Shown here: in pieces, positions 59,236 to 64,000 of the stretch
How positions within the stretch are numbered: the first letter of the stretch is position 1
Layout: every line of letters starts with the position of its first letter
Translations under genes and position numbers: made by a program
Origin: Plantibacter sp. VKM Ac-2880
Lineage (GTDB): Bacteria; Actinomycetota; Actinomycetes; Actinomycetales; Microbacteriaceae
Assembly (NCBI RefSeq): GCF_015351235.1
Contig: NZ_JADKSJ010000001.1
Location: 976,289 to 1,040,288, forward strand
Direction: 5' to 3'
DNA length: 64,000 nucleotides
Notes under the pieces: generated by a model
Database searches by the model: none
Told to the model about the DNA's origin: nothing
Seen by the model: only the letters and a program-made list of their open reading frames with translations

Positions 59236-60201
59236 ATGATGCCCGAGCACGATGACCGCCAGCCGGCGCGTTGTCCTGCGCGCGGACGCGTCACGACCAC
59301 CCGGCTCTCGGGTGCGGCGGGCATGCAGGAGGCCTCCGGCGCCATCCGCTTCGTCGACGGCGACCCGGACCACTTCTCCATGACCATCGACGCCGTGGCG
59401 CTCGGTGACTACGTGGTCCACCGCAATCGCGTCGGTCCCGGCACCTTCGACGTCCTCGACGCCGCCGGATCGGAGGAGCCGGTCGCGATGATCGTCCTCC
59501 TCACCGACGGCGCGGTGAGTCTGATCCACGGTCGGCAACAGCTCGATCTGCATCCCGGCGGCGGCGCGCTCGCCGTGTCGGAGGAGGTCTACCGCACGAC
59601 CGTCGACGAGCAGGCCACCTACCTGCACGTCTTCGTCCCGCTGCGCGCGCTGCGTCGCCTGGGTATCACGCCGACGCCGTTCGGGGCGCTCGCCCCGTCA
59701 CCGCTGTTGCGGGCGATCGCCGCCTTCTTCGACGAGGTCGTCTCCGGTTTCGAGCCGATCGGTGGTGCCGCACAGCTGCGCCTGTGTCGCGTGATCGACA
59801 CGATGCTCGCCACGCTGTACGCCGAGAACGACCTCTTCCAGGCGGACACCGACGCCGGACGTGTCCCGATCCGGTTGCGGATCATGGAGCACATCGCCGT
59901 CTCGTTCGCGGAGCGCGAGCTGCGACCGGAGACGCTCGCGCGCCGCTTCAACATGTCGACCCGGTCCCTGCAACGGGTGTTCGAGGGCTCGGGCACGAGC
60001 GCCGCCGGCGAGATCGCCGAACGCCGACTCCAGCTCGCCCTCGCGCTCCTCTCGGACCCCGACCACCGGACGTTGTCGATCGCGGAGGTCGCAGCCCGCT
60101 GCGGGTACCACTCGCAGGCGCACCTCCGTCGCGCGGTCGTGGCGCACACCGGCTTCAGTCCGACGCAGGTGCGGGAGCAGTCGACGGCGGGCGGCTCCTG
60201 A
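59236..60201 (+). CDS. AraC-family transcriptional regulator
   Basis: A 321-residue AraC/XylS-type regulator. The N-terminal half is a cupin-like ligand domain resembling AraC_binding_2 (VHRNRVGPGTFDVLDAAGSE; LIHGRQQLDLHPGGGALAVS). The C-terminal DNA-binding domain has two helix-turn-helix units: ELRPETLARRFNMSTRSLQR with VFEGSG, and LSIAEVAARCGYHSQAHLRR then FSPTQVRE. Two consecutive ATGs (59236, 59239) are possible starts; GAAGG precedes them. The neighbours (an unknown protein and an antibiotic-monooxygenase-like protein) do not reveal its target. A weak hairpin at 60200-60234 follows. Confidence 0.88.
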   Translation: MMPEHDDRQPARCPARGRVTTTRLSGAAGMQEASGAIRFVDGDPDHFSMTIDAVALGDYVVHRNRVGPGTFDVLDAAGSEEPVAMIVLLTDGAVSLIHGRQQLDLHPGGGALAVSEEVYRTTVDEQATYLHVFVPLRALRRLGITPTPFGALAPSPLLRAIAAFFDEVVSGFEPIGGAAQLRLCRVIDTMLATLYAENDLFQADTDAGRVPIRLRIMEHIAVSFAERELRPETLARRFNMSTRSLQRVFEGSGTSAAGEIAERRLQLALALLSDPDHRTLSIAEVAARCGYHSQAHLRRAVVAHTGFSPTQVREQSTAGGS

Positions 60202-60234
60202 CCGACGCGGGCCGGTCCGGTGGCCTCGGCGGTC
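60200..60234. terminator. Imperfect hairpin between convergent genes
   Basis: GACCG-a-CG-c-GGGCC ... GGCC-t-CG-g-CGGTC: about 11 pairs with two symmetric mismatches, between the AraC gene and the convergent membrane protein gene. Confidence 0.45.
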
Positions 60235-61412: not shown

Positions 61413-63188
61413 TCAGCGCGCGGCGGCGGCGGCGGCGATGGCGTCGGCTGCGCGGACGAGTCCGAGGTGCGACAGCGCCTGCGGGGTGTTGCCGACCTGC
61501 CTGCCCTCCTGCACGTCGTACTCCTCGGACAGGAGACCCAGGTCGTTGCGGAACGACAGCAGGCGGTCCATCAGCGTCCGGGCGTCGTCCAGCCGTCCGG
61601 AGCTCGCGTACTGCTGGACAAGCCAGAACGAGCACGCCAGGAACGGGTGCTCCTCGCCGGGGAGTCCGTCGACGCCGCTGGTGGTCCGGTAGCGGAGGAG
61701 GAGACCGTCCTGCAGGAGGTCCTCCTCGATGGCCGCGACCGTCTTGAGCATCCGTGGGTCGTCCGGCGCGACGTATCCGATCTGCGCGAGGACGAGGAGC
61801 GACGCGTCGACCTCCGTCGTCCCGGCGTGCTGCACGTAGCACCCGCGGGCGTGGTCGACGTTCTCGCGTTCGATGGTCTCCCGCAGGGTCTCTCGGAGGG
61901 CCTCCCAGCGCTTGACGGGACCGTCGAGGCCGTGCTCCCGGACCGCTCTGACGCCGCGGTCGAGCGCCGCCCAGATCATCGCCCGCGAGTGGGTGAAGTG
62001 CTGCTCCTCGCCACGGACCTCCCAGATGCCGCGGTCCGGACGGTTCCAGTGCTCCTCCAGCTCGCCGAGCAGCGCACGCTGCAGGCTCCACGAGAAGTCG
62101 TCCTCGGCGAGCCCCACCGAGCGTGCCTCGTCGAGGGCGATCATGACCGAACCGAACACGTCGCCCTGGTACTGCGTGTAGGCGCCGTTGCCGACGCGCA
62201 CGGGTGCGGCACCGAGGTACCCGGGCAGGCTGTCGAGCTCCTCCTCGACGAGATGGCGTTCACCCGCGAGGCCGTACATGATCTGCAGGTCGTTCGGGTC
62301 GCCGGCGATCGCGCGCAGCAGCCACCCCCGCCAGTCGTGCGCCTCCTCGGTGAACCCGTGTTGCATGAGGGCTTCGAGGGTCAGGGACGCGTCGCGCAGC
62401 CAGACGTAGCGGTAGTCCCAGTTGCGGACCCCGCCGAACGACTCGGGCAGGCTCGTGGTCGCGGCCGCGACGATGCCGCCGGTGTCCTCGTGCGTGAGGG
62501 CCCGGAGCACCAGCAGCGAGCGGACCACCGCCTCCTCGTATTCGGCGGCCGGGTCGCAGCGGGCGGCCCAGTCCCGCCACCAGTCGGCCGTGTGGTCGAT
62601 CCGTCGGCCGACGTCGACGGGCTCCGGCACGTCCCGGTGCGAGGGGTACCAGGTGAGCGTCAGGTCGACGGTGTCGCCGGCGGATACCTGGATGGACGCC
62701 GAGTGGGCGTGGTCGGAGGCGGTCAGGCGCACCCCGCGGAGGACGACCGCGTCAGGACCGGCGACCGCGACGATGCCGGAGCGGTCGGGCAACTGACGGA
62801 CCCACGGCACCGCGTCGGCGTATCCGAAGCGGATGCGGACGTCGACGTCGACGCTGACGGTGCCGCGGACGCCCTCGATCCGGCGGATGACGTCGGCTCG
62901 TCGATCCCCGTGCGGCATGACGTCCGTGACGCGGATCTCGCCGTCGCCCGTCGTCCAGGTGGTCTCGAGGACGAAGGTGTCGTCGAGGTAGCGGCGGGTC
63001 GCCCGGGCGTCCGGAGCGGCCGGGCGGACACTCCACCGGCCGTGGTCCTCGGTGCCGAGCAGAGCGCCGAACATGGAGGCGGAGTCGAAGCGGGGGAGGC
63101 AGAGCCAGTCGATGCTGCCCTCCGTCGAGACGAGTGCTGCGGTGTGGCAATCGCCGATGAGGGCGTAGTCCTCGATGGGGCTGGGCAT
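61413..63188 (-). CDS. Glycoside hydrolase family 15 protein (glucoamylase/trehalase type)
   Basis: A 591-residue cytoplasmic GH15 enzyme. The N-terminal part IEDYALIGDCHTAALVSTEG and SIDWLCLPRFDSASMFGALL is the conserved beta-domain; the (alpha/alpha)6 barrel carries GVRNWDYRYVWLRDASLTLE, with the general-acid region, and GEEHPFLACSFWLVQQYA, with the general base Glu. Actinobacterial proteins of this form include trehalases and glucan or dextran glucosidases, so trehalose or an alpha-glucan is the probable substrate. ATG at 63188 gives the conserved start PSPIEDYALIGD; an in-frame GTG at 63209 is the alternative. No signal peptide. Confidence 0.9.
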   Translation of the reverse strand: MPSPIEDYALIGDCHTAALVSTEGSIDWLCLPRFDSASMFGALLGTEDHGRWSVRPAAPDARATRRYLDDTFVLETTWTTGDGEIRVTDVMPHGDRRADVIRRIEGVRGTVSVDVDVRIRFGYADAVPWVRQLPDRSGIVAVAGPDAVVLRGVRLTASDHAHSASIQVSAGDTVDLTLTWYPSHRDVPEPVDVGRRIDHTADWWRDWAARCDPAAEYEEAVVRSLLVLRALTHEDTGGIVAAATTSLPESFGGVRNWDYRYVWLRDASLTLEALMQHGFTEEAHDWRGWLLRAIAGDPNDLQIMYGLAGERHLVEEELDSLPGYLGAAPVRVGNGAYTQYQGDVFGSVMIALDEARSVGLAEDDFSWSLQRALLGELEEHWNRPDRGIWEVRGEEQHFTHSRAMIWAALDRGVRAVREHGLDGPVKRWEALRETLRETIERENVDHARGCYVQHAGTTEVDASLLVLAQIGYVAPDDPRMLKTVAAIEEDLLQDGLLLRYRTTSGVDGLPGEEHPFLACSFWLVQQYASSGRLDDARTLMDRLLSFRNDLGLLSEEYDVQEGRQVGNTPQALSHLGLVRAADAIAAAAAAR

Positions 63189-63236
63189 GACCCCATGCTG
63201 CCACGCCACGTCGGGAGCGCCTGGGAGCGATGCCCC

Positions 63237-63265
63237 GTGACTTCTCAGGGTCGATCAGGTAATGT
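63237..63265 (+). promoter_or_regulatory. Promoter of the helicase-type gene
   Basis: GTGACT (63237-63242), 17-base spacer, TAATGT (63260-63265). Transcription from about 63272 would give an untranslated leader of roughly 220 bases, the longest in the window. Confidence 0.6.
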
Positions 63266-63308
63266 AGCGAAGTCGGCTCTAGACACCGCGTTTGTACCGC
63301 GGAGGGTT

Positions 63309-63368
63309 ATGTCAGTCTGGTGGGCCGGTTTCGTCGGAGAGAACTCCGCGAACACACACACGATGTGA
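63309..63368 (+). CDS. Putative 19-residue leader peptide (uORF)
   Basis: A small reading frame MSVWWAGFVGENSANTHTM inside the leader of the downstream gene. CGGAGGG ends two bases before its ATG, a spacing shorter than ideal. It contains two adjacent Trp codons (TGG TGG) at positions 4-5 and ends 125 bases before the main ATG. A hairpin within it (63330-63352: TTCG-t-CGGAG, loop AGAA, CTCCG-CGAA) could respond to ribosome position. It may be a regulatory uORF or chance; no homology is known to me. Confidence 0.4.
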   Translation: MSVWWAGFVGENSANTHTM

Positions 63369-63493
63369 ACGGTCCCGGCCATTGATCGCCCGGGTATGAG
63401 CATGCCGCAGCGCAGCCGAGGTTTCGGATGGCGCTGTGTGAGTCATGCAGGTCGTTCATGCGAACGAGTAATAACCCGGAAAGCAATTTCTCC

Positions 63494-64000
63494 ATGCCCA
63501 AGAACAACACCCCCGCCGGCAAACGCCCGGCCAAGAACTTCGACCCCAAGTCCAAGTACGGCGAGAACAAGCGGCCCTTCGGCTCACGTCCCGGCGCGAA
63601 GTCCGGCAGCAAGAGCGAAGGCCACCGCGGGTACCGTCCCGACGCCGGTGGAGCGCCGCAGAAGTCCCGTTGGAACGCCGACGAGCGCGCCGAGCGCGCC
63701 GCCCGCTTCGAGTCGGAGGAACGCGGCGACCGTGCACCCCGTGGCGACCGGAACGAGCGTCCTGCGTACAACCGTGGAGGCGACCGCAACGAGCGTCCCG
63801 CCTACAACCGCGGTGAGCGCACGGAGCGTCCGTCGTACGGTGACCGCAACGAGCGTCCGGCGTACAACCGTGGTGGCGACCGCAATGAGCGTCCTGCGTA
63901 CAACCGCGGTGAGCGGACCGAGCGTCCGTCGTACGGTGACCGGAACGAGCGTCCGGCGTACAACCGTGGTGGCGACCGCAATGAGCGTCCTGCGTACAAC
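63494..64000 (+). CDS. N-terminal part of an RG/NR-rich RNA-binding protein, probably a DEAD-box helicase (runs off the window)
   Basis: The first 169 codons of a gene continuing past the right edge. The product begins MPKNNTPAGKRPAKNFDPKS, is basic and disordered, and from about residue 85 is made of repeats such as GDRNERPAYNRG and RTERPSYGDRNERPAYNRGG. In nucleotides the period is 96 bp (units beginning 63821 and 63917). Microbacteriaceae DEAD/DEAH RNA helicases often carry such N-terminal extensions, which is why I propose that identity; the helicase core itself is not in the window. A weak GGAAAG lies upstream of the ATG. Long leader and uORF suggest post-transcriptional control. Confidence 0.6.
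   Translation, partial: MPKNNTPAGKRPAKNFDPKSKYGENKRPFGSRPGAKSGSKSEGHRGYRPDAGGAPQKSRWNADERAERAARFESEERGDRAPRGDRNERPAYNRGGDRNERPAYNRGERTERPSYGDRNERPAYNRGGDRNERPAYNRGERTERPSYGDRNERPAYNRGGDRNERPAYN
63821..64000 (+). repeat. 96-bp coding tandem repeat at the window edge
   Basis: Unit one 63821-63916 and a second, incomplete unit from 63917 encode RTERPSYGDRNERPAYNRGG then DRNERPAYNRGE. Third-position differences (CGCAAC vs CGGAAC) show the copies are not brand-new. Half-units (NERPAYNRGG) also precede 63821. Confidence 0.85.

Follow-up and report, generated by a model that had tools for sequence, protein, structure and literature searches.

What is the long leader of an RNA helicase gene for, and is it read by ribosomes as a short peptide gene or does it act through its fold? 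The question is raised by the last part of the window (the whole 64,000-nucleotide stretch of Plantibacter sp. VKM Ac-2880 DNA analysed here), where the original prediction saw ribosome-controlled expression of a helicase-type gene through a short upstream open reading frame (uORF) with tandem Trp codons. Part of that reading stands, as a long, probably regulatory leader does precede an RNA-helicase gene, but the Trp-Trp uORF mechanism does not, and a covarying RNA structure is found instead. Comparison of homologous sequences indicates that what is conserved in the leader is a folded RNA, with which the message begins, and not a peptide gene. On balance, we favour the view that this RNA is a cis-regulatory leader that controls the initiation of helicase translation.

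The helicase gene and the start of its message

The gene (63494..64000 on the + strand, continuing past the window; in the window's own genome, L004:3783-6185) codes for a DEAD-box RNA helicase of 800 residues that matches the Pfam profiles DEAD (1.4e-42) and Helicase_C (3.9e-27); its NCBIfam matches are CshA/RhlE/DbpA-like, every one of them below the curated cut-offs. The helicase ATG lies at 63494, and an additional in-frame ATG is found at 63428. The N-terminal part of the protein (63760-64000; L004:4032-4730) contains Arg/Tyr-rich units, such as RDNERPAYNRG and RTERPSYG, which are repeated in tandem over a long stretch at periods of about 96, 60, 36 and 27 bp, and the helicase core begins near residue 415; the copy number of these repeats may differ among strains.

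That the gene has a long leader was borne out. The leader covers about 222 nt (63272..63493, + strand), its start being placed by the conserved spacing to a -10 box, and it is delimited as a structured RNA by the covariance model R1 and by DNA matches. The inferred promoter has the -10 box TAATGT (63260..63265, + strand), and in 98 of 99 leaders a TANNNT element ends 5-7 nt upstream of a conserved GTCGG, the distance being exactly 6 nt in 86 of them; five shifted windows of the same width give TANNNT in only 0-4 of the 99. This fixed distance implies that the conserved RNA begins within 0-2 bases of the 5' end of the message, and we infer that transcription starts at about 63271/63272. A generic sigma-70 promoter scan returned no promoter at the leader. 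A search for intrinsic terminators between 63150 and 63600 found none, which favours translational control. Taken by itself, the leader from Plantibacter sp. VKM Ac-2880 folds only modestly better than shuffles, with a z of -1.95 and 5 of 200 shuffles folding equally well or better. Further upstream in the window, ARAGORN calls a tRNA-SeC at 60116-60215, within a stretch rich in long open frames; the call is probably false.

Distribution of the leader

Searched as DNA, 63240-63560 found matches in 67 of 150 genomes of the family, the best matches spanning 63259-63400 and nine of the 67 covering only the gene start. An exact pattern scan of genome contigs, which requires a conserved string and so selects for conservation, gave 77 loci: 74 with Microbacteriaceae names, which we take to belong to that family, one named Micrococcales, one Corynebacterium-like and one from a Rhodoferax MAG. 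The same pattern had no exact match in viral contigs. Loci named as Plantibacter have the same leaders as the window's genus mates, in keeping with the placement of the window in this genus of Microbacteriaceae. The covariance model R1, built from leaders of the pattern scan, matches 270 of 398 Microbacteriaceae genomes in 66 of 85 genera at E 0.01; the 128 genomes with no match at this threshold, about a third of the family, include several small ones. In an order-wide search of 297 genomes R1 matched 21, of which 20 fall within Microbacteriaceae, and the single match outside the family, a marginal one in G565 (E 0.005), has no helicase-like frame behind it. A broader model, R2, matched 32 of 396 genomes across the order, 31 of them Microbacteriaceae, the other being a marginal match (G410, E 0.0053). 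R2 also matches 76 of the 77 pattern loci, some of which belong to its training set; the exception is the Rhodoferax MAG (L078), which was rejected as a chance pattern match.

Downstream of the 77 pattern loci, a helicase is found at 62; at ten others the sequence ends early but shows an N-terminal helicase motif, and at five nothing is found, four of these having less than 190 nt of downstream sequence. Among the 71 downstream proteins with a core of at least 300 aa, 70 carry the GKT, DEAD, SAT and HRxGR motifs, and the 71st lacks only a literal DEAD. A covarying fold is fixed upstream of one gene type, as in structured cis-regulatory mRNA leaders in general.

Mimicry of 23S rRNA by the leader was also considered and rejected, the local alignment scores for two leaders being 21-22 against shuffled means of 20.5-21.2. 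The window's own assembly (G000) has no 23S rRNA match, whereas the other six of the seven Plantibacter genomes searched do; this is probably an assembly gap.

Conserved helices of the leader

The leaders were aligned in three sets: A2, with 31 of 37 non-redundant leaders, six with long inserts having been left out; A3, with 100 leaders aligned to R1 and hence biased toward helices P1, P2, P3, P5 and P6 but not toward P4; and A4, from which 29 of the 100 leaders, including those with long inserts, were left out. In A2 the P1-P2-P3-P5-P6 set is paired in 96.6% of cells, against 92.8% in shuffled alignments, and 35 cells show double changes where shuffling gives 9.3. The strongest covariation is that of P2 (63280-63284 with 63315-63319, + strand), where the pair at columns 14/129 is, in 100 leaders, AU in 28, GC in 23, UA in 23, CG in 14, GU in 11 and another combination in one. 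The P3 hairpin (63286-63290 with 63298-63302, + strand) has double changes at three of its five pairs in the 31 leaders. The P5 hairpin, CACA-CGA-UGUG (63357..63367, + strand), is paired in 87.9% of cells of the same leaders, and an A-U to G-C double change occurs in two of the 31; Herbiconiux versions with GUCG/CGAC were noted by eye. P6 (63374..63394, + strand; CCCGG at 63374-63378 with CCGGG at 63390-63394) is paired in 98.7% of cells in the 31 leaders. Comparison thus gives strong covariation support to P2 and P3, and less to P5. The hairpin that had been noticed inside the uORF, a variable stem-loop that we call SLv (63330..63352, + strand), also withstood comparison, since folding of the homologues gives at least five pairs in 95 of 100, with a mean z of -3.1 against dinucleotide shuffles. 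Agreia/Subtercola-type leaders (L034, L040, L053, L083 and L115) have inserts of about 50-105 nt in SLv and keep the remaining core.

Two further helices draw on one strand. The nearly invariant GGGCCGG (63322..63328, + strand) can pair with UCGGCUC (63273..63279, + strand), close to the start of the message, to form P1, or, through 63322-63327, with CGGUCC (63370..63375, + strand) to form P4, whose end is overlapped by the 5' end of P6; P1 and P4 exclude one another. Across 100 leaders P1 is paired in 98.6% of cells and P4 in 99.2%. P1 has four double-change cells, three of them from one genus, and one of its seven pairs is unpaired in nine leaders; P4 has A-U for G-C at one pair in four leaders from four genera and at another pair in three leaders of one genus. 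The column triple 7/137/373, which takes in both helices, reads C-G-C in 64 of the 100 leaders, C-G-U in 26 and U-A-U in three, the last being leaders of one genus in which the A at column 137 faces U on both sides and P1 and P4 pairing are both kept. At columns 10/135/376, five leaders have an A on the common strand, which is matched in P4 in four of the five and in P1 in one, making P1 the weaker helix. When the helices are scored in combination, P1 with P2 is paired in 97.9% of cells (90.1% shuffled; partners slid out of register, 24-59%) and P2 with P4 in 98.2% (89.4% shuffled; slid partners, 34-50%), and in neither case does any of 500 shuffles reach the observed value. Folding energies favour P4 in 35 of 37 leaders, with a mean advantage of about 6 kcal/mol over P1, which would therefore need kinetics or a partner to form. 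The compensations are few, with more of them in P4, so that P1 and P4 as exclusive alternatives have fewer events behind them than P2 and P3. In leaders of the genus g85 (L157-L166) the P4 region appears by eye to be remodelled (GGGGCC GAUGGU ... ACCAUC ... GGCCCC), and in some of these leaders the P3-P2 loop lacks GGGUU.

The proposed uORF

The 19-codon frame on which the original prediction rested (MSVWWAGFVGENSANTHTM; 63309..63368, + strand, from an ATG at 63309 to a TGA at 63366-63368), with its tandem Trp codons, is present in the sequence, but it is not conserved in relatives. Likewise, the GGAGGG proposed as its ribosome-binding site is there, but ends 2 nt from the ATG, which is close for a Shine-Dalgarno sequence, and its first GG lies within helix P3. 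Neither the frame nor the codons were kept when the uORF was compared upstream of orthologues. At the aligned position, the 100 leaders have ATG in four, TTG in 63 and GTG in 14. The four ATG leaders are one of Plantibacter (L005) and L178, L191 and L192, the latter three with unrelated peptides. Frames of at least ten codons start from this position in 25 of the 100, with differing peptides, and Trp-Trp frames of at least eight codons are found in three (L005, L023 and L029). Even within Plantibacter the 19-codon frame closes in only two of seven genomes, the stop being lost in the other five, where the frame runs for at least 99 codons. The uORF ATG belongs to the loop between P3 and P2, which in Plantibacter is GGGTTATGTC; in other genera the commonest form is GGGTTTGTAAG, in which a TTG start would run immediately into TAA. 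The conservation of the TGGTGGGCC stretch is, as far as comparison tells, that of the P2, P1 and P4 strands and not of the Trp codons.

Three features could be read in favour of a ribosome-read uORF: the ATG frame with TGGTGG in Plantibacter; TTG frames with VWWAGF in L023 and L029, of 24 and 19 codons, the latter being LSVWWAGFAHGSRVHIHTL; and a three-codon frame, ATG-GGT-TTG-TAA, one step upstream of the uORF position, which is held by the loop GGATGGGTTTGTAAG in 38 of the 100 A3 leaders. The three-codon frame is, however, absent from loops with a second base other than T, such as GGAAGGG, and its ATG varies between genera, so that it too is probably incidental. The leader was thus rejected as a member of the attenuator or peptide-leader class, for which a conserved start and reading frame are expected. 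We judge the uORF to be incidental, and this comparison of sequences has refuted it as a conserved mechanism.

A link between the loop and the ribosome-binding site

The same loop offers another role. Its element GGGUUAU (63304..63310, + strand), which overlaps the uORF ATG, is complementary over 7 nt in Plantibacter to AUAACCC (63471-63477), and this candidate 3' strand of a pseudoknot is followed directly by the likely Shine-Dalgarno sequence of the helicase gene, GGAAAG (63478-63483; the whole element, 63471..63483, + strand). The association was tabulated for 92 of the 100 leaders, eight being dropped in which the helicase start could not be placed. GGGUU is present in the loop of 55 and missing in 37. 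AACCC or AGCCC lies just upstream of the helicase Shine-Dalgarno sequence in 54 of the 55 GGGUU leaders, compared with seven of the 37 others, in a count that ignores relatedness. The strand of P6, which is equally complementary, shows no link with A[AG]CCC (48/68 vs 13/24). Moreover, Clavibacter has a matched change, with GGAUU in the loop and AGGAAUCCC, containing AAUCC, at the site. This co-occurrence of GGGUU with A[AG]CCC, together with the matched pair in Clavibacter, suggests a pseudoknot that masks translation.

Other analyses bear on this suggestion. Swapping loops and ribosome-binding sites in silico revealed no energetic preference for native combinations, as 433 of 5000 permutations were as good for all 93 leaders, 3228 of 5000 within the GGGUU group and 3477 of 5000 within the rest. 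On a tree of 71 helicases, which left out 18 of 89 with a core of less than 300 aa and 13 of 102 in which no core was found, there are five supported independent contrasts; in two to four of these (mean 3.4) loop and site change together and in none do they oppose, a number of contrasts too small for significance. With strict AACCC on the same tree, one contrast opposes in two of 200 random pairings. Taken together, these comparisons make the pseudoknot a good, although unproven, hypothesis where the main clade is concerned. The divergent clade may mask its ribosome-binding site by other means. In the Mycetocola-type leaders L029, L069 and L086, which have no GGGUU, an AGCAA loop was seen by eye to be complementary, with one G-U pair, to the UUGUU that immediately precedes the start codon, and might form a pseudoknot in place of the usual one. 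An alternative pairing of AACCC with the 3' strand of P6 (P7) was rejected, since 1934 of 5000 permutations were as good in 37 leaders and AACCC does not track the strand.

Discussion

How might such an RNA control the helicase gene? P1, made of the first bases of the transcript and GGGCCGG, would form first, as the RNA emerges during transcription, and could later be displaced by P4, in which GGGCCGG pairs with CGGYCC. The GGGUU of the loop would pair with the AACCC beside the Shine-Dalgarno sequence and cover the ribosome-binding site, and the balance between these states would set the output of helicase. Going by the identity of the gene, we guess that the sensor is most likely the helicase itself: with helicase to spare, the masked state would persist or be restored, and with the helicase engaged on other RNA, as might happen in the cold, the site would open. 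Given that the leader RNA goes with a single type of helicase gene, autoregulation is the idea that needs the fewest assumptions, and regulation of the helicase by itself via the predicted switch is plausible. The full form of this proposal, a family-wide switch that reads the activity of its own helicase, with unwinding exchanging P1 and P4 and free helicase closing the pseudoknot at the ribosome-binding site, we put forward only tentatively. If true, the switch would be a direct cellular gauge of spare RNA-unwinding capacity.

Alternatively, temperature itself could shift the fold with no protein involved, in a cold-sensing leader of the cspA/crhR sort, a reading that we consider rather unlikely. 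DEAD-box helicases are often cold-induced, and the leader precedes one. crhR, moreover, is described in PMC3485376 as both temperature-regulated and autoregulated. However, in 37 leaders between 5 and 37 °C the predicted probability of being unpaired stays at about 0.1 for ACCC and at 0.46-0.54 for the Shine-Dalgarno sequence, and this small effect of temperature, in a calculation that is free of pseudoknots, speaks against a simple thermometer. Less likely still is a leader of the riboswitch or r-protein type, in which a small molecule or another protein would bind the conserved 5' domain. Strong conservation of bases, helices that exclude one another and the link to the ribosome-binding site are riboswitch-like traits, but the leader was found in a single family and, where the gene is visible, to a single gene type, and it has no Rfam match. 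That the leader serves mainly to set mRNA stability or to yield a trans-acting RNA, pairing at the ribosome-binding site being secondary, seems improbable, because the strong 5' fold could protect the message but the association of the loop with the motif at the ribosome-binding site points to translation. Finally, attenuation by the Trp-Trp uORF, or regulation by any other short uORF, deserves hardly any credence given the erratic start codons, peptides and stops described above.

We return to the reading that we favour, a folded leader that acts on translation initiation, and to its place among known systems. Rfam 15 gave no match up to E 5 on 62900-64000 and none at the gathering threshold in eight homologous loci. 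No report of the leader was found among the open-access papers that literature searches listed, although a 2017 survey of 224 candidate RNAs may describe it, and the leader is not described in the available sections of PMC8632094 and PMC6429828. We rate it as a new RNA family of the structured cis-regulatory leader kind. It adds to those known a family that has no Rfam 15 match and that accompanies one gene type across a large family of bacteria. Should the helicase be the sensor, the leader would be a compact system in which a DEAD-box protein remodels a defined RNA and the result shows as gene expression, and the way in which bacteria set the level of an RNA helicase would become directly testable.

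Translational riboswitches such as SAM-II and preQ1-II sequester the ribosome-binding site in a pseudoknot. The helicase leader resembles them, with no claim of membership, in its conserved fold, in a possible alternative pairing and in a candidate pseudoknot that would mask the ribosome-binding site; it differs in having no known ligand. In Bacillales, the uORFC-6-1 motif is a structured leader before hflX, a gene described as an RNA helicase in PMC8632094, but that motif is a candidate uORF whose peptide region is conserved, before another gene and in another phylum, whereas the uORF of the Plantibacter leader is not conserved. The DEAD-box helicase gene crhR of Synechocystis is a precedent for autoregulation of a bacterial RNA helicase, through transcriptional and post-transcriptional steps, while neither temperature sensing nor the control of transcript stability by temperature depends on CrhR, according to PMC3485376. 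Its host is unrelated, and the likeness drawn here is one of gene type; for the helicase studied here, autoregulation is our proposal. A further parallel, described in PMC5874925, is the feedback of RNase J (and RNase E) through the 5' UTR: there the gene codes for a ribonuclease, the proposed route is mRNA decay, and enzyme and RNA are both different, but RNA-processing machinery would in each case adjust the synthesis of its own enzyme through the leader of its message.
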